Of a stretch of 64,000 nucleotides of DNA, positions 47,024-63,166 are shown one piece after another. Numbering within the stretch: position 1 is the stretch's first letter; each line of letters opens with the position of its first letter. The translations under genes and the position numbers were made by a program. The DNA comes from Cloeon dipterum (taxonomy: Eukaryota > Arthropoda > Insecta > Ephemeroptera > Baetidae): NCBI RefSeq assembly GCF_949628265.1, contig NC_088788.1, forward strand, positions 29,002,335 to 29,066,334. The letters run 5' to 3'. The notes beneath the pieces were generated by a model. It was not told the origin of the DNA, ran no database searches, and saw only the letters and a program-made list of their open reading frames with translations.

Positions 47024-48901
47024 TTAAGGTTTGATTTTATCAAGTTTAACATTGCGCAGGAAGCTGTAATAGCTATATGAAGCTGCTGTTATCTGAAAAA
47101 TCCGAAAAAATAAAATTTAAGTTAGGAATATACTTCTAGCCGTCATAGCTTGCGATAAAGTATTTTTTAACTCACAGCGTTCAGCGTTTTCAGCGAGAGC
47201 TTGTAAAAAGGTCCTGCCTTAAGCGAGTATTTGATGTTGCTTCCCAATGCAATGATTTCCAATGAGGTATAGTCCGCAGAATTGATATGCGGAGCAGTTG
47301 CCAGTTTAGATAACACTTCCGTTCGGAACTTCACTTCCTGAAACGTTTAATAATGACTTTTTTCAGCAAATGGTGTAGTGGAAACAAACTGCGTCAGTCA
47401 GATTTTCAGCAAGCCACCCAAAAATAAAAAGTTCTAGCATGTTGGATGCAAACTCGAGAGCCAGGACCGCACTTTGACTTGAAATTTCAGCCTATAACCG
47501 GAAAAATATTAGAAATTGTACAGTTTTATTGGATAAAGATAAACTTGCATGGTCTGTGATTTCCTTAGCAGTTAGGCAGAGAACTAAAATAATTCGCCAC
47601 ATTTTCATTTGGAGCTGAAATGAGTACACCTCGTTGGCCATTTTTATTAGCCTGTGAAAAATGACTTGATTATTGCCACAAAAATGCCGGTTCGAGCAGC
47701 ATACTTTAAAATATACTGGTGCAAAGTTGCAATATAACGAACGTCAACTTTCTCTGGATTTATGATCGATGGCCAAATTCTATTTTCGCTCGACTTTTCT
47801 GTAGTAAGAACTAGTTCACTCATGCTTTCAACTAAATGATCGGCATATCCTTGTATGAAGCAGCAGATATGAAAGTAAATCATAGCGTAGCCAAGCTGGA
47901 ACAGTCCTAGGGAGGTGTGCACGAAAATTTCAACATAGCCGTTCAGAGCCAAAAACACTGATGCCAGAGTGGGATTTAAATATTTCGCTAAAAAATTTTC
48001 ACTTTTGTTTTCTGCTCTCTCTATTGTTGCCCTTTCTTCTTCAGGATCATTGAAAAAGTAGTTTCTGTGAAATAACGAAATCAAAAATAGAAAAATAAAT
48101 TAATTTTCTTTTTGGCATTCCTGTACTTAAAGCATTATTAATCAGCATAAAAGACGAACTAATTTTTCAACGTTGAGGTATGTCAAAAGTCTAAACGCAT
48201 AATAATAACTATTGAAAACCGACCTGTGATAACATGAATGTACTGACAATTTGTGATAATAAACAACCATATATATAAATGTAAGCCATTCTTTATCACT
48301 TCAGCACAACCTTTTATGAAATTGTGAATCTTTTACTATCATATTTTTAAAGCAAATGGTTGTTGTTCAATCTATGACTAAGACAAGTTATTTCAAATCT
48401 TTTGTAATAAAATTAAAAATATCCTTGCAACAGAATAAAGGTATACCTGTATTCAAGTGCGATTGAAACAGCAGCTGATATGAGCATATAAAGCCAGACG
48501 ATCAAGTAACACAGCCTTCTTGCCTTCCTCATATACATCTTGAGCACTGTGCCAAAATTTTCTTTGATCACTTCAGGACAGCTGTGCAATATTTCGTGCA
48601 CTTCCTTTCTTTTCATTTGGAACCCCAAAATCTGCAGGACGTAAATAAGCAGGCTGCCCTTGATCCAGAGTCCTCGTAAGAGGACTTGTGTATTTTCAGC
48701 GTTAATGAAAAAGTAGAGAAGGATCTCAAAAATTGTGTGCACGCAACAGATTGCAGTGATGGCGACATATAATTGCGAAATGAGCCTAAGAAATTTGTTC
48801 CTCGGATTCATAGGTAATGCTCCACTGACTTTCATCAGGATAAGTAACTTCCTTGAATAACAAATTAGTATGCGACCGTCGTCTTCTTTCTGCTTAAACA
48901 T
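47024..48901 (-). CDS. odorant receptor, 7tm_6 family (416 aa)
   Basis: Six exons: 48901-48447 (ATG), 48064-47705, 47651-47549, 47491-47390, 47337-47176 and 47092-47024 (TAA); 417 codons. The frame carries the usual series of hydrophobic helices, the HQYILK segment in the third intracellular region, and the conserved C-terminal block: LKAGPFYKLSLKTLNA spliced to ITAASYSYYSFLRNV, the hallmark SYY..L end of insect odorant receptors. It should act with the co-receptor Orco as a ligand-gated channel in sensory neurons; the ligand is unknown. The third intron starts with GC (GCAAGT) instead of GT. An alternative start splices an ATG at 48954-48952 (GATATG then GTGAGT) onto exon 1 at CAGAAAGAAG; I kept the unspliced ATG. 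Length is normal for the family. A decayed relative lies at 50970-51470. Confidence 0.9.
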
Positions 48902-53463: not shown

Positions 53464-56064
53464 CTAAAACGGAAGATTACTTAAAGTATTGAAGTTTGTA
53501 AGAATAATGGGCTGGTTCCCCACTTGTGAGAGGTCAAGCGAAGCTCCAGACACAGTAATAGGGAGCTGAATTTGCAAGGTTTGTGGAACTTGGAAGAAAG
53601 TAGGTGTCTGCAGAGCGTTGGCAGCAGGTGTCATGATGTGCATTGGAAGAGGGCTGGGGGTTTGCAAAATATTTTGAGTGGACAAAATGTTTTGCGGAGG
53701 AACATTTGTAATAAGAGAATCGACTGCATTTAGGGGCAATGATTCAACAGTTTCTGCGTTTGAAAACTGTAAATTGTCTTGGGCCACTTCAATTATAATA
53801 TCTGCTACATTGCTTTCAACTTCAATGGGTTCTTTTGGCTCCAATTCAAAGATATCGTCTTTTTCGACGGAGGCAGACGCAGCTTCTTCTCCAACATCTG
53901 CTTCCTTGGATGCATGAGTCCTCCTGAGAAAATCATTGGTTGGAATTGAATAAATATGCATATGATGGATTTGGTTACCTTTGATGTGCTCTTAGGTCAT
54001 GAGCGACCAAAAACCTTTTGCTGCAAACTTCACATTCATGTTTCTTTTCTCCCCGATGTCTGCGCAGGTGTTCATCAAGTTTGGATTTTCTAATGAATCT
54101 TTTCGAGCACTGGTTGCACACATAAGGCTTTTCCCCTGTAATTGCAATTAAAAGTCGAGTAGTATACCATTGATACTTGTACCAATTAATATTTCTCTAC
54201 CTGTGTGTATGCGAGTGTGAAAGACCAGTTTGTCTTTTCTGTTGAATTTAGACCCACATATTCCACATGAGAATTTCTTCTCCTTATCAGTGTGGCGAGC
54301 TACGTGGATTTTAAGGCTCTGAGTGTTGCTCAATCCTTCTCCACAAACCTAAATGAAGAGCGTATTTGATCACCAATGAAATCAAATTTTAAACAATTAC
54401 CTGGCAGAGATACTTTTTAATTAAGTTGTGCTGCTGCTCCTTGTGGCGAGTGAGCAAAATTTTCATTGTAAAAATTTCTTCACACTCATCACATTTAAAT
54501 GAATCTTCATTCTTCTCATGTTTCTTTACCAAATGCTTTTGAAGCGAAGGACGGTTTTTGTACTTGGCGTCGCAGAAATCACAGAAAAAACTGAGCGTAT
54601 CCCTACAAACCAAAGATGAAATTTGTCACTTCTTCATTCAATCTCCATTAACTAACATGTGATTTTTCTTCTTATGGTAGTTTAGATCCTTTTTGTTTTC
54701 AAAGCTTTGGCTGCAAATTTCGCAAAGGTATGGCCCTGGCTTGCACTTTGCAATGTGGCACACCATTCGGTCGAGACTTCTGTACTCCTCCCAGCACTGG
54801 TTGCATATTAGGTAGCTAAGTTCCAATAAATGATCAAAATGTCTGACAAGTCGATCTTCTCCTTCTTTAATGGGGAGGTCCAGCTGGGTTCACAAATAAT
54901 TTTATTAATTTTCTTATGTTTCTGTTAAATCAGCTATGTACCTCCTGAAGTTCCTCTGCCTTCAAGTTGCAGTCGTGCTTTGTAAATGTTTCCAAGTCTT
55001 TGTATGTGTGAAAACATTGGCAGCAACATAAAATATTCAAGCTGTCTTTGTCCAGTTGGGAAAATCTGTCGAGCGTTTGCTCACTCATTTCATGGGCATA
55101 TTTAACATGATTTTCAAGGTAGACAGAGGTGGAGAATATCCTGTAAATTTTATTAATTAATAGCACTTAATTAGCTTAATCTTTGATTTTGGTTCCAACA
55201 AACCTCAAACATTGAGTGCAAGGCCATTCAGTTCTTACATTGCGTTTTCTTTTACGACCGGGTGAACTGCTTTTATCCTTTTCAGGCTTTGAAGGTGACA
55301 TAACAGCTAAAATATTGATTGCGAATGTAAAAAATAAGAAATTATTTCATTTCTCTTACTCTCAATTAATATGGGCTTCTTGGTTTGAGCTTCTCGAAGC
55401 ATTCGTTGACGACGAGTTCGATACTGATTAGCATTGCTTGAGTTGTCATTCTGAATTTCAGCAGGTATTTCATCTGAATTGGTATAGTATTAGAATTTAT
55501 ATAGCACTATAGCTTTACTAAACTTACTTGAATATTTGTGCATTCCTTCATTTGAGTCAGGACATTCTGCTTCAGGGACTTCATTCAAATCAAAATTTGT
55601 GACGTTGTCAACCTCTGTTTCTGAGTTATATGATTCAAGAAGGCACTAAAAAATAAAAATTTAGAAAAATTCCTTTTTCAATATTGCACTGCACAGTTAA
55701 GAGGCTTAATTTGTTTCAATTGTGATAAATAATTACCTGTATCTCTGAAGCAAATTTTCTTGATAAATTAATTACTTCATCAACTGCTGGACCATTTTGG
55801 AATTTTCGTAATAAACACGAGCACGAAGCTATCTCAAAAATCGAATCGACTGAAGACAGCTGCAGATGCACATACATAATTGTCAATTACATAGATGTAA
55901 TGCATAAATACATACATACATAACACAAAAAATGTAAATAAATAATAAATAAATAAATACGAATAATGCCTTTTTAAGATAATTTTATACGCATTACATA
56001 CCTGTTCAACAAAATTTTGAAGAGTTTTAACAATGTTTTTGACTGTGCACTCTGCTGAACCCAT
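53464..56064 (-). CDS. C2H2 zinc-finger protein, probable transcription factor (637 aa)
   Basis: Eleven exons: 56064-56002 (ATG), 55859-55737, 55645-55528, 55473-55360, 55306-55204, 55140-54942, 54883-54657, 54602-54401, 54348-54201, 54135-53979 and 53923-53464 (TAG); 638 codons in one frame. The N-terminal ~140 residues have a Cys-containing helical piece ([13 protein letters not shown]) and acidic stretches but no domain I can name. A basic patch (GRKRKR, likely nuclear signal) precedes eight C2H2 fingers, starting with CTQC..H..H and ending with [20 protein letters not shown], plus two imperfect C2HC fingers ([19 protein letters not shown]). One linker is the classic HTGEKPY. The ~150-residue C-terminal exon is acidic then Gln/Pro/Leu-rich, fit for an activation region. 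Nuclear DNA binding is inferred; the target is unknown. Confidence 0.88.
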
Positions 56065-56470
56065 CTCAGATAGAATATAATGACACGATGCTACACGCTA
56101 AAATATTTGATTAATCCGAACACTAGAATTTTGTTTGGATAAAATTTACTATAGTATTTTTGATTATGAACAGCGAAAGTTTGTTGTTATTGCAGCCAGA
56201 GTTTTCCGTTCCATTAGTGCTTGTTGTGTTGTGAACAGTTGTGATGGTCTTAGACACTCCCCTTTTCAAGCAGTGGGTGGGGGTGTGGCACGAGTCTTAT
56301 AGACTCGAGTTTGTTATGTGGTTTCCATAGTTTCGTTCTCGTTGGGCTGGTCCTCGTCAGAAATACATAATATTAAATTATTTTTAATGGTGTCATGTCA
56401 TCAGGCATCTGATTGATTCAATTTTGCTCTTTAATACGTTCATTGATATAAAAACTTTAAGCATTAGACT
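56065..56470. promoter_or_regulatory. shared promoter region between the zinc-finger gene (-) and the Nudix gene (+)
   Basis: The two start codons face away from each other across 406 bp, so both promoters must lie here unless there are distant leader exons. I see no TATA box at a fitting distance for either gene, as expected for broadly expressed genes. Confidence 0.5.
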
Positions 56471-57435
56471 ATGGAGAAATTATCTGACGTGGTCTGCAAA
56501 TCGTTCACTGAAAACTCGCCCTATGTTCAGCCGTATCATATGTTTTTTGTTCAGGTTATAGACCCTTCAAAGCTTATCACAATTATATTATTTTGCTTCG
56601 TAAAATTATTTTTTGTGTATTTGAGTTAAATTAAGAATTGATTTTCATTTTTAGGATGGTCGAAAGAGAAGATGGGATCTTTTGAAAATTCATGACAGGT
56701 GAAAAAACCTTCCCATAATGAAAATTAATTTTTGTTTCGTCCAATTTTCAGTGTGGCTATTCTAATTTTCAATGTTACTCGCCAAGTCTTGGTATTGGTG
56801 AAACAATTTCGCCCAGGTAATCCATCACTTCTAAACCCATTCCTTTGATTGAGTGACTTTGCACAGCTGTGTACTTGTCAAATATCCAAGACGAAGACAA
56901 AGTATTGGAAAAGCACATTGACACTTCAAAATATCCTGCTGAACTGGGTCTGACCATTGAGCTGTGTGCAGGCATTGTCGACAAAAATAAGACCCTTGAA
57001 GAGATTGCATGTGAAGAGGTGGATGAGGAGTGTGGGTACACTGTTCAACCAGCCGACTTGCAAAAGATAGTTTGCTACAGGTCATTGTTACAAAGCAGAT
57101 ATTACTTTTATTATGACTGACTTGAATCTAACAAAATTTATCAAAAGTAGGTCTGGTGTTGGAGTATCTGGTGATAAGCAGACCGTTTATTATGTTGAGG
57201 TCACTGACGAGATGAGAACTTCAAAAGGTTTGAAGCACAGACCTCCAATTTCAGTGGAGTAAAGTTTTGTTCTATCTCCACAGGTGGAGGAAACCTGGAC
57301 GAAGGTGAGCTGATTGAAGTCATTGAGATGAGCATAGAAGAAGCCAAAAAGTACATGAAGAGAGAAGATGTCCTTAGTCCTGGTGGTTTCCTCTTTGCTC
57401 TGACTTGGTTCTTTAATATGAAAAACATCAAATGA
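56471..57435 (+). CDS. Nudix hydrolase, NUDT14-type (UDP-sugar diphosphatase) (211 aa)
   Basis: Six exons: 56471-56554, 56655-56698, 56752-56816, 56867-57080, 57151-57227 and 57284-57435 (TGA), 212 codons. The N-terminal part carries the WDLLKIHDSVAILIFN and LVLVKQFRPAVY blocks of the ADP-sugar/UDP-glucose pyrophosphatase subfamily. Residues 96-122 form the Nudix box in the NUDT14 form: ELCAGIVDK, then TLEEIACEEVDEECGY, with the catalytic E..EE cluster. The C-terminal GGGNLDEGELIEVIEM and a hydrophobic end also match NUDT14. It should hydrolyse UDP-glucose or related sugar nucleotides to UMP and sugar phosphate in the cytosol, with Mg2+. Length is near that of vertebrate NUDT14. The spacing within the box has one residue more than the textbook pattern, as in that subfamily. 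Confidence 0.9.
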
Positions 57436-57468: not shown

Positions 57469-60400
57469 TCACAAAGCCTCCTCGTCTTCTTTGCTGAACT
57501 GGGCAGATACCCAAGCTAAGCCCCATTTCAGATTGGTTAATACAAACTTCAGCGCCTTTGTCCACTGTTCCTCAGAGTTGAATTGAATCCTGAAATGGTT
57601 AATCGAATAAAATTAGATTTTAGATCTTTGTTAAAAGGCACGGGAAAGTGTCGCATGAATTTAAATCGTTTTTTTAAATATAAATAAGCCACAAAAAATG
57701 AAGAAACCGTCAATGGGCTTATTAAAATTAAGTTTTTTTCCGCAGTGTTGGCTTAGTTAAAATTAAATGCAAGGGACTTAAATTTTGTACAAAAAGCTTT
57801 CTGTTATTTTGTGACTTGAAAAAAACTTATTCTAAAATGAAAATACCTGACCTAGCCTAGAATTAAATTTTACAACAAGATTACAAGCCAAATTTTAATG
57901 GCTTTTCAAAGCCATCAAAGGTGAAGCTTTGAAAGGATGGCTAACATTTCAGATGACATTGCTGGTTTACTGCAAATTAATTCCTTTAAGAAAAGTTCCA
58001 TTTGAATTTCAATGGACCATTGCCTAGACTGTTTTTATTTTGACCCTCTGCACAGCATATCCCGCATACTATGAGCTCACCAGGTCCCAATAACATGAGG
58101 CCCGAGTAGCCGCAGGGGAGCTTGGGCCTAATGAGGCCATCTTTTCGCTTCTAGACCCTCAAAATGCTCAAATAAATGTCTCCCATAGCCTTGAAACTGC
58201 TAGAAATGCTTAATGTGCAATTACATTGAAAAAACAATCAAATTTAGCTAGCAAATAAATGTAATAATATGTACCTTTAACTAATACCAACATAGTGGCC
58301 ATAATTTAATGCTTCATTATTGGAATAAACAAATGAATAAATGCTAAATAGGGAAACACAATTGATCCCAAAAGTTTTATGTTTTCTTTCAACCAGATGA
58401 TAGTTACCAGAAAAGCGAAAAGCAACATCCACCAAGGACATTTTGAATGGTCAGCGAGTTATTCGTCGCTGATAACTGATCTATTTTCGCGCAGCAGAGA
58501 TTCGCAGACGTTAATTACCGCCGTGGAAGTAGCGGTTACTGTGACTGCTCACAATGAAAAAACAATTTTGAATGTTGCAAAAATTATTCAACAATTAATG
58601 AAAAATTAAAATTTCATCCTTTGTCCGAGGTCAAAATCGCACTATAATCCACAGCACTAAAATAACGTCCGCAATTCTCCATCACGCGGAAATAGATTGG
58701 TAATTAACTCACTGACCATCCGTAGCGGGGAAATTTCCTTGTTGGGTGTAGTACTTCTGTATACTAACTACAATCTGGTTGAAAGAAAGCATTTAAACTC
58801 TTTAGATCAATTGGTGTTTCCCTTGTGGGGCATGCCATTCATAATATGTTTCATAACCCTAACGCTTACTTGATTGAATAGGAGTTTCCAGACGTGGTAT
58901 CTTCAACTTTTCCTTTTTCCACTCCGTATGGCAAACAGAATCCGGATTCTCCCCTCTCGACTTCTTCCTTAAACTGCTGCATCAAGTCTAAAAACGCGAC
59001 CATAGCAGCATCAAACTTGTTATCCCAGAGGAAACGAAATCCTCCTGACCCGTACAGAGGAAGTTCCTTGTTTTCTGCTAAAACCTGCAGGACAAAATAT
59101 TAAATTTACTTGCCAGCAAAAACAAAGTAACTCTTACTTCAATATAAGAGTGATTCCCGTATGGAACTAATCGGTATCTCGCAAAAGTGAGGTTGATTTT
59201 TCTAGCCAGTGAAGCAAGCAAGAGAGCAGTTTGACCCCAGGCTGCATTGATTTCACTCCAATCAACCGGCGCACTTGGAAGTCTACCCAATCTGAAATTG
59301 TTGATGGTGCCAAAGTGGCCACTGTGCCAAATGTGGAAAGTGGCGTTGAAGACATTAGTTTTCTTCAACTTCTCCAGCTGAGACCTACGAGCATTAATAA
59401 AACATATTTATTTAGTTTGAGCTGTGGAAAGATCCTTCTATTTAAGTTTGTAGCAGGTGTTCAAAGTTCATTGATATTATTTTAGAAACAAATGTGATCA
59501 ACACTTTTTAAACTGTGATAGACTGATATTGCTGGACTTGGATACATTAAAACTGTTTACTTTGTAAAGACTTCCTAGCACATGCAAAGGAAAAAAGCTA
59601 ATACAACAAGAAGTAAAAAAAAAATTTAAACATATATTTTACATTTTTGTTAAATATTGACTGACTGGATTGTTTCCCTCACCGTGTGTATGCTAGCTGA
59701 CACCTCAGGGATTTCTCTTCGTCTTCAGTGATGAGTAATTCACGCCTATGCTTAGTGTATTCCCTCCAGTATTTGGCTTCCTCCTTTTCCAACTGCTCTT
59801 TGGCAAGCTGTTTTTGCTTCACTGATAACTTTGCCTCGAGTTCTAGTGATTTTAAGTTCTCGAGGTCTTGAATAAGGGTAAGCTCTTCCAATTGCAGCTG
59901 CCCCGTTAAGTATTAAAAGTAAATTTCTTAAAAAAAACATCTTGATTTACCTGCTGGAGCTCAGCTTCCAATTCTTCCGTGGATTCATCATAATGCTCTG
60001 ACAACAGTCTAAAATATCTATTTGAGAAAAGCGACTGGCATTTTTTTTAGATGAATCACCTTTCCAAGTAATCCTTGTAGTCTCTTTGCTCGTCTTCTGT
60101 TTGCAGAACCTGGCGTTTCAACAGTTCAAGAATTGTGTCAGTGCATTCTTCACAGAGGGGATGGTCGATTTCAGAATTATTAGAGAGAGCGTCAAAGAGA
60201 GCAGCATTTACCTATAAAAAAGAGGGAGCAAATTTTATGATTTAAATTGAATCGCAAAAATATTGTTGTTTTAATACTTTATAGTGGTGGCTGAATCCTT
60301 CATATTCTCCATCTCCTCCAACAAGCATAAACCCATTGGTACCAGTTGCTGTCGAGTCTGCCAAACGAAACGGAGGAATGAATCTATCAAAGCCAGCAGC

Positions 60401-60722
60401 TTGCGCCTCTAAATCGATCCCTGGGCTTTGGCACAATGGAACTGGAATCAAGCATGCATTTGGTTATTTACTGGCGTTTAGTTGCAACAGAATAATCAGC
60501 TTTCAAAAGGAGATTTAAAAGTATCAAGGGCTGATTTTCATTCGATTCAGTGTAGTCCTGGTTGCGAAAAATCCAGCTAATCAAAGAGATTTTATGAAGG
60601 ATGCTTTTACCTGCAAGGTCAGCGAGGGTTTGATCAGCGAGAGCGTCGAAAGTCGAGTCTAGTTTCAGAGGCTGCAAGCACCTCTGGCAGGCAAAATTAA
60701 CGTGCACCTTGTTTTCTACCAT
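57469..60722 (-). CDS. Atg6: Beclin-1 (Atg6), autophagy protein (427 aa)
   Basis: Eight exons: 60722-60611 (ATG), 60441-60278, 60211-60060, 60008-59951, 59897-59683, 59384-59138, 59084-58870 and 57589-57469 (TGA). Domains in order: zinc-like pair CQRC (12-15) and CEEC (112-115); a weak BH3-like stretch before it (ALFDAL); a coiled coil (~120-234) ending in [13 protein letters not shown]; and the C-terminal ECD/BARA domain ([79 protein letters not shown]). Beclin-1 is the core subunit of the class III PI3-kinase (Vps34) complexes that start autophagosomes and sort endosomes. The membrane aromatic finger is F-L-W (334-336) where vertebrates have F-F-W. The gene ends 33 bp from the Nudix gene, and its 3' UTR must run antisense into it. 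The last intron (1.28 kb) is much longer than the others. Confidence 0.95.
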
Positions 60723-61675: not shown

Positions 61676-63166
61676 TCATTTATGAGTATCCTCTGTTAAA
61701 AATACAGAAACAAAACATAAATAACATTGCAAATTTCTCAACATATATTTTAGCGCCTTTTGCCATCCTTCCTCCGAATTGAACTCTTTCCTTAATTAAA
61801 AATATATTAATTTTAGAGTAATAAATTATCAGAATGAATTGAACCTTATAGAGTATGATTGGCCATATTTGTCCTCAAGTACTCCACCTTTTATTTCGTA
61901 AGGCATCAAAACTGTCGCATCAATTGACTTTATCCTCACTTCGAGTTGTTGCATTAATTCTAAAAATGCAACCATTGCTGCGTCAAAACTTTTGTCTTTT
62001 GATTTAAAGGCGCAACCATTTAAATTAAACAGAGGCAGCATTTGCCCGTCCTCTAAAACCTACAGAAAATTAGTTAAATTTTAGACCATAAAATTAAATA
62101 GTTTTAAAAATACCACAAGATGAGAACGGCTTGCGTAAGCTACAATCCGGTACTTTTCGAACTCCAGTCCAATTAATTTTGCTAGGGATGTGAGCAACAA
62201 AGCAGCCTGACCCCAGGCTGCGTTAATTTCCCTTAGCGAGTGGTCTAGTGAGAAATTGTTAATCACACCCACAGTGCCTTCGTCGCAAATTTTGAAGCAG
62301 GCGCTAAACACGTTTGTATCTTGCACCGTTTTTAACCAGAGACTGTAAATAATTGCCATCATTTTAAGTAAAATTTAATATGAAATTATCAAACGTTGCA
62401 TTAAGTAGACGCAATTGAAGGGATGAGATTTCATCTTCGTTCATAGCGAGTTTTGACAGCTCACGTGCTTCATGAAGCTTGCGTTTCCTTTCCAACGCCT
62501 CTTTTTCTGCTATGGACTCACGGGAAGTCCTCTTTTCCTCATTGAATTCTCCAATATCCTCCTCTAATTTTTTCTCCTCTTGTTGAAGCTAAAAATATTT
62601 AGTTGTTTCATTGTTTTTACCGTTGTATTTTAAACCTTAGCTAGTTCTGCCTCTAACTCATCAAGGGTCTCGTCACTTTGTTCAAAATTGAGTCTGTAAG
62701 AAAACATAATAATAAATAATTTTTAACGTAATAATTGCTGGTACTTGTTTAAATATTCCGTATAATCTTCAACTTCATGTTCCGTGTTTAAAATTAAAAG
62801 TTTTATCAAATCAATACTGCAGTCTGTACATCCTTCACAGAGGTGGTGCTCGACTTCAAAATTATTAAATAATAGATCACACAAGCCAGCATTCACCTGG
62901 ACAGATTGATATTACAGAGTTTTATTTATTTTCCAACTTTTCCATACCACATATTGATGACTAAATCTCTCAAACTGTTGATCATCTGCCATTAAATTTG
63001 TTTCGCTTGGTGCTTCCTCCCCTATTTAATTGAAAATGATACAAATCTCTTTCCATTTTTAACATCCCATTTAATAAAAGTCGTACATACCTTCATCATT
63101 TTTATGCTTTTGCTTCATGTGGCAATTTACACAGCTGAAAGAGGTGCGTGTATTATAGGCGGACAT
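61676..63166 (-). CDS. divergent Beclin-like paralogue (370 aa)
   Basis: Eight exons: 63166-63091 (ATG), 63021-62948, 62896-62745, 62693-62636, 62588-62395, 62342-62114, 62059-61845 and 61790-61676 (TGA). Three exons equal the Beclin-1 exons in length (152, 58, 215) and all junctions align, so it is a tandem copy. Kept: Cys12/Cys15 (CVNC) and Cys70/Cys73 (CEGC), a coiled coil, DTNVFSACFKICDEGTVGVI, INAAWGQAALLL and [14 protein letters not shown]. Changed: exon 2 is less than half as long (74 against 164), the [12 protein letters not shown] loop is reduced to LDHSLR, the aromatic finger is KSK (280-282), and the C-terminal LKWGLAW is replaced by LQCYLCF with a new tail. There is no stop or frameshift in 1113 bases, so it is probably expressed and constrained. 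It may be a tissue-specific or dominant-negative-like Vps34 partner; that is conjecture. Confidence 0.85.

Follow-up and report, generated by a model that had tools for sequence, protein, structure and literature searches.

The second Beclin of eutherian mammals, BECN2, is an intronless retrocopy. The chordate ancestor is reported to have carried one BECN, with BECN2 arising in eutherians; relaxed selection accompanied its asymmetric divergence, and in BECN1-knockout cells it fails to bring back autophagic flux (PMC13020874). In Beclin-1 itself three membrane motifs of the BARA domain have been described, a hydrophobic loop (human residues 293-298), aromatic finger 1 (359-361) and aromatic finger 2 (418-419); the activity of complex II is reported to need all three, whereas that of complex I is reduced by mutants of finger 1 and of the loop and unaffected by those of finger 2 (PMC7326497). 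Mutation of the aromatic finger in yeast Vps30 is likewise described as leaving complex II inactive (PMC6358306). Further towards the N-terminus, the CxxC pairs are reported to bind one zinc in human complex II, and a strand at residues 78-83 augments the C2 domain of UVRAG in that complex, whereas the same N-terminal region is almost completely disordered in complex I (PMC13218723).

In the mayfly Cloeon dipterum, the window analysed here (64,000 nucleotides of contig NC_088788.1, GC 39.6%) carries a canonical Beclin-1 gene (B1) and, upstream of it and head to tail with it on the minus strand, a second Beclin gene (B2), the two coding regions lying 953 bases apart (Table 1). An earlier note, made from the letters of this stretch, had described B2 as an intact but divergent tandem paralogue with eight exons in frame for 370 codons, which the spliced model bears out: all introns are GT-AG, the frame ends in TGA after 370 codons, and the eight exons contain no stop, frameshift or broken splice dinucleotide. 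B2 matches the Pfam family APG6 of the BARA domain (PF04111) with 142.2 bits (cut-off 34, E 2.2e-41) and the human Beclin-1 chain with 179 bits (E 1.6e-51), to which B1 aligns with 491 bits (E 3e-146); the Pfam coiled-coil family PF17675 reaches 37 bits in B2, under its cut-off of 45 bits.

The positions and phases of all seven introns (7/7) are common to B1 and B2. Exons 3, 4 and 7 are of equal length in both genes (152, 58 and 215 nt), as the same note had observed, and the remaining five pairs differ by 36, 90, 21, 18 and 6 nt, each a multiple of three. Since the intron positions are common to both, the duplication took place at the DNA level and in tandem, and a retrocopy is excluded. The introns of B2 all measure 47 to 69 nt, those of B1 up to 1280 nt. 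Intron 7 of B1 contains, at 58359-58813, terminal inverted repeats with 28-nt arms that are 89% complementary and 358 nt apart, plus 19-nt outer arms, an element that resembles a small non-autonomous DNA transposon. A repeat search did not find a long repeat linking the flanks of B1 and B2 (25 of the 34 inverted pairs were listed); it did return a long direct match in exon 6 and another that crosses the start of exon 7.

Table 1. Positions of the two Beclin genes and of their exons in the window.
Feature	Position	Strand	Basis
B2, Beclin paralogue, coding span, 8 exons, 370 aa	61676..63166	-	GT-AG spliced model, open frame, Pfam APG6 E 2.2e-41
B2 exon 1, 76 nt: start and first CxxC (CVNC)	63091..63166	-	aligned to human C18/C21
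B2 exon 2, 74 nt, 90 nt fewer than exon 2 of Beclin-1; lacks the equivalent of human 78-83 (UVRAG-pairing strand)	62948..63021	-	alignment; role of 78-83 as described in PMC13218723
B2 exon 3, 152 nt: BH3-like region and second CxxC (CEGC)	62745..62896	-	spliced model and alignment
B2 exon 4, 58 nt: coiled coil begins	62636..62693	-	spliced model and heptad analysis
B2 exon 5, 194 nt: coiled coil; one heptad (7 residues, 21 nt) missing relative to Beclin-1	62395..62588	-	spliced model and heptad analysis
B2 exon 6, 229 nt: BARA; 18 nt shorter, 6-residue gap on hydrophobic loop (human 293-298)	62114..62342	-	alignment; motif as described in PMC7326497
B2 exon 7, 215 nt: BARA; aromatic finger 1 is FKS (human FFW, Beclin-1 FLW)	61845..62059	-	alignment; motif as described in PMC7326497
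B2 exon 8, 115 nt: C-terminus; aromatic finger 2 QF to EF	61676..61790	-	alignment; motif as described in PMC7326497
B1, canonical Beclin-1, 8 exons, 427 aa	57469..60722	-	spliced model; human Beclin-1 E 3e-146
B1 exons	60611-60722, 60278-60441, 60060-60211, 59951-60008, 59683-59897, 59138-59384, 58870-59084, 57469-57589	-	spliced model

The neighbourhood of the two genes holds several further reading frames. Minus-strand C2H2 zinc-finger frames lie at 53978-54889, one of them with a zf-H2C2_2 match (E 1.5e-12), and two hydrophobic minus-strand frames at 47647-48901 look chemoreceptor-like by eye and have no Pfam match. Plus-strand frames at 56468-57435 include a stretch that by eye resembles a Nudix box, with three single frames having no Pfam match; the last of the plus-strand frames ends 33 bases before the stop codon of Beclin-1 (in plus-strand coordinates), so that the two genes converge.

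No third Beclin locus is found in the whole genome (190.1 Mb), as all four PF04111 matches fall in B1 (three) and B2 (one), and a genome search with B2 as query returned ten matches, seven in B2, three in B1 and none elsewhere. At E up to 1, PF17675 had nine matches, all of them under its cut-off: three lie within B1 and B2 and six elsewhere (E 0.035 or more); because the same search also matched 9 of 14 prokaryote controls, I regard these six as meaningless and discount them as further copies. In the same 190 Mb no exact (TTAGG)5 was found, which is weak evidence since the search skips simple repeats; TTAGG is reported to be missing in mayflies and dragonflies (PMC8977481). The expectation, voiced in the earlier note, that most animals have a single Beclin-1 and that a second copy (BECN2) occurs mainly in mammals is supported for chordates (PMC13020874). 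Among the matches listed in literature searches aimed at duplicates, covering titles and the starts of abstracts, no arthropod Beclin duplicate is reported. A shrimp survey of ATG genes has one ATG6 row in the part available (PMC11188248), the available text of a paper on Tenebrio Atg6 mentions no paralogue (PMC7072900), and that of a paper on Cloeon development mentions neither Beclin nor Atg6 nor autophagy (PMC11491810).

The proteins encoded by B1 and B2 are identical at 154 of 369 aligned sites (42%). Human Beclin-1 is matched by B1 only at 107 sites and by B2 only at 12, and 39 aligned sites are common to B1 and B2 against human; these counts suggest that B2 originated after the split from vertebrates, and that most of the change would have occurred on its side. 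At four-fold sites the two genes are 34% identical (n=50), compared with 26% expected by composition, and with synonymous sites this near saturation the duplication is old. The earlier note had proposed dN/dS against Beclin-1 as a measure of selection on B2, of which only one half could be had: dN is 0.55-0.57, whereas dS is saturated and either not computable (NG86) or meaningless (ML, 11.5). As dS is saturated, selection was judged by codon positions, stops, gaps and residue classes.

Identity between B1 and B2 at codon positions 1, 2 and 3 is 0.59, 0.63 and 0.31, as against 0.68, 0.67 and 0.67 in a neutral simulation run to equal protein identity; in the neutral simulations the codons of Beclin-1 stand in for the ancestor and stops are disallowed. 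A stop would be created by 187 of the 3330 possible single-base changes in B2, and under neutrality the simulated probability of remaining free of stops drops to 0.065 after 0.05 substitutions per site and to 0.007 after 0.1. For the residue classes I used the 145 sites of the BARA domain that are common to human and B1, dropping the five in the B2 deletion, two of which are aliphatic (L293, V298). Over the 140 retained sites the aliphatics are identical in B2 at 23 of 27 and still aliphatic at 27 of 27, whereas other residues are identical at 54 of 113, and of 2000 neutral simulations with the same total, 5 reached the first of these aliphatic counts and 0 the second. The effect is weaker in the wider region 131-448, with 30 of 43 aliphatics identical, a value that 89 of 2000 simulations reached, and 38 of 43 still aliphatic, which 5 of 2000 reached. 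The hydrophobic core of B2 shows clear purifying selection, and to judge from its sequence B2 has for most of its history been a folded protein under selection, though it may have gone out of use recently; that it is coding and selected I consider very probable.

With Beclin-1, Atg6 and Vps30, B2 has in common the BARA domain, the coiled coil and both CxxC pairs; with its neighbour Beclin-1 it also shares the exon structure. All four zinc-ligand cysteines are kept, CVNC and CEGC aligning with human 18-21 and 137-140. The a/d contrast of the heptads in the coiled coil is matched by only 2 of 5000 shuffles in B1 and 4 of 5000 in B2, and the coiled coil of B2 is shorter by exactly one heptad (seven residues, a gap in exon 5 that the aligner split 3+4), with the register of Beclin-1 kept at both ends; its middle departs from the common register in B1 and B2 alike. 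In the BH3 region (human 105-130) B2 keeps five of the nine sites common to human and Beclin-1, with a cysteine in place of human F123; B1, too, differs from human at several sites of this region.

On the other side, B2 differs from these proteins in having only 42% identity to its own neighbour, in the lost heptad, and in the loss of most of the N-terminal disordered region, including the part aligned to human 78-83. It differs as well in the surfaces that are required for Beclin-1-like membrane work, not for homology: all three membrane-contact motifs, the loop and both fingers, are changed or lost in B2. The hydrophobic loop falls in a six-residue gap and is deleted, aromatic finger 1 reads FKS against FLW in B1, with two of the three hydrophobic residues gone, and aromatic finger 2 reads EF against QF, each finger retaining one phenylalanine. 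The human Beclin-1 mutants AFM1, AFM2 and HLM, studied in complexes I and II, alter the same three surface motifs (PMC7326497); however, these are engineered aspartate mutants, whereas the deletion of the loop, FKS and EF in B2 are natural. Conserved residues are kept in B2 at 2 of 9 motif sites versus 75 of 136 in the rest of the BARA domain, which may weakly indicate a loss targeted at the motifs beyond that in the remainder of the domain (Fisher p 0.057, five of the residues lying in one deletion and not being independent). However, the stretch corresponding to human 377-402 is lost as badly, with 3 to 4 of 15 conserved sites kept in each run of sites compared, so that the motif losses may belong to a general relaxation.

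As with BECN2 and BECN1 in eutherians, the second Beclin diverges fast and the first is conserved, the same asymmetry of fate (PMC13020874). Unlike BECN2, B2 adjoins its own Beclin-1 and has 7/7 introns in common with it, and it shares 39 sites with B1 as against 12 with human. The introns, the neighbouring position, the site counts (taken against human Beclin-1) and the date of BECN2 speak against a common origin of B2 with BECN2, and B2 looks like an independent, intron-bearing parallel of BECN2.

The partners of Beclin-1 were searched for exon by exon, a procedure in which diverged copies can be missed. The genome has one locus for ATG14 (human ATG14, E 2.6e-32) and one for UVRAG (E 8.4e-14, at first a weak match on C4 with E 0.011), the frame upstream of the UVRAG match having no PDB match; three other matches to PF10186 are weak (E 0.1-0.4), and the Bcl-2 family gave one genome match. 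With one ATG14 and one UVRAG locus, the animal appears able to form complex I as well as complex II, and B1 and B2 would be in competition for a single set of partners; duplicated partners as the reason for a second Beclin were considered and none were seen. Splice donors, scored against the consensus MAG|GTRAGT, average 5.4/9 in B2 and 6.9/9 in Beclin-1, six of the seven B2 donors scoring 5; such weak donors would fit low or conditional expression. TCAGT, at -29 and -103 from the start of B2, and A[AT]TAAA, downstream of its stop, are such frequent motifs that I give them no weight as expression signals.

In the reading that I favour, Beclin-1 was long ago duplicated in tandem, head to tail and with all its introns, and B2 is the protein-coding copy that resulted. 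B2 would be translated, its fold would be that of a BARA protein carrying a zinc finger at the N-terminus, and its coiled coil could pair with ATG14 or UVRAG, or with Beclin-1; that it is still a subunit of a VPS34 complex seems somewhat more probable than the opposite. A VPS34 complex containing B2 would be expected to sit poorly on membranes, because the loop is gone and finger 1 is short of two of its three hydrophobic residues. As complex II depends on all three motifs and complex I less so, the human mutant data would predict that B2 cripples complex II, the one with UVRAG, and merely lowers complex I, the one with ATG14; this specific defect in complex II is possible, at a little under an even chance. 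B2 might then damp endosomal VPS34 activity as a competitor, or serve as a complex-I-biased subunit. The whole chain, in which B2 is a specialised, complex-II-defective Beclin with weakened membrane contact that acts as a rival to Beclin-1 or as a subunit biased towards complex I, can be put forward only tentatively. Its sharper form, a long-maintained Beclin with the assembly parts and without the membrane surfaces and the UVRAG strand, which would be a brake on complex II or a switch towards complex I, I consider unlikely.

The main rival is that B2 is a relaxed, little-used copy heading for loss, translated at a low level or in few tissues and dispensable for autophagy, the ancestral work being left to Beclin-1, much as BECN2, for which a higher dN:dS is reported along with the failure to restore autophagic flux in BECN1-knockout cells (PMC13020874). 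The one-sided divergence (107 versus 12 sites) and the weak splice donors agree with it, as do the replacement of five of the seven conserved tryptophans of the BARA domain, of 21 of the 31 conserved D, E, K or R sites and of the membrane motifs. However, the frame has stayed intact and its length changes have come in threes while synonymous sites approached saturation, the coiled coil was shortened by a whole heptad, all 27 aligned core aliphatics are still aliphatic, and full neutrality beyond about 0.1 substitutions per site is improbable. I regard this rival as slightly less probable than the favoured reading. Weak donors could also belong to a dead or recently dead pseudogene, yet eight exons free of stops, frameshifts and broken splice dinucleotides and a core that did not evolve neutrally are hard to reconcile with this, and given how seldom a neutral copy escapes a stop in the simulations any death of B2 could only be recent. 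The selected core, the frame-keeping lengths and the loss of a whole heptad rule out an old pseudogene, in agreement with the claim of the earlier note that B2 is intact, and the recent one is very improbable.

Alternatively, B2 may now work outside VPS34 complexes I and II, in a new role such as tissue-restricted (germline or immune) signalling via its coiled coil and zinc finger. The kept zinc cysteines and heptad pattern, next to changed membrane contacts, are compatible with such a role, and non-autophagic roles are reported for BECN2 (PMC13020874); however, the conserved core of the BARA domain favours the same type of complex, which makes a role of this kind quite doubtful. Finally, B2 could stem from an error of assembly or be the second haplotype of Beclin-1, retained in the assembly; I found nothing in favour of either: both genes lie on one 37-Mb contig with 953 bases between them, and 42% protein identity with nearly saturated synonymous sites makes this explanation practically untenable.

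The VPS34 lipid kinase has Beclin-1 as a subunit in its autophagy form and in its endosome form alike, and the two roles of Beclin-1 are hard to separate genetically. If the favoured reading of B2 as a specialised Beclin is true, the mayfly gene would be evolution's own experiment on this point, with the assembly parts retained and the membrane contacts altered. It would also be a second, independent duplication of Beclin besides that of BECN2, and as such it would bear on whether Beclin copies drift repeatedly to non-autophagic use.
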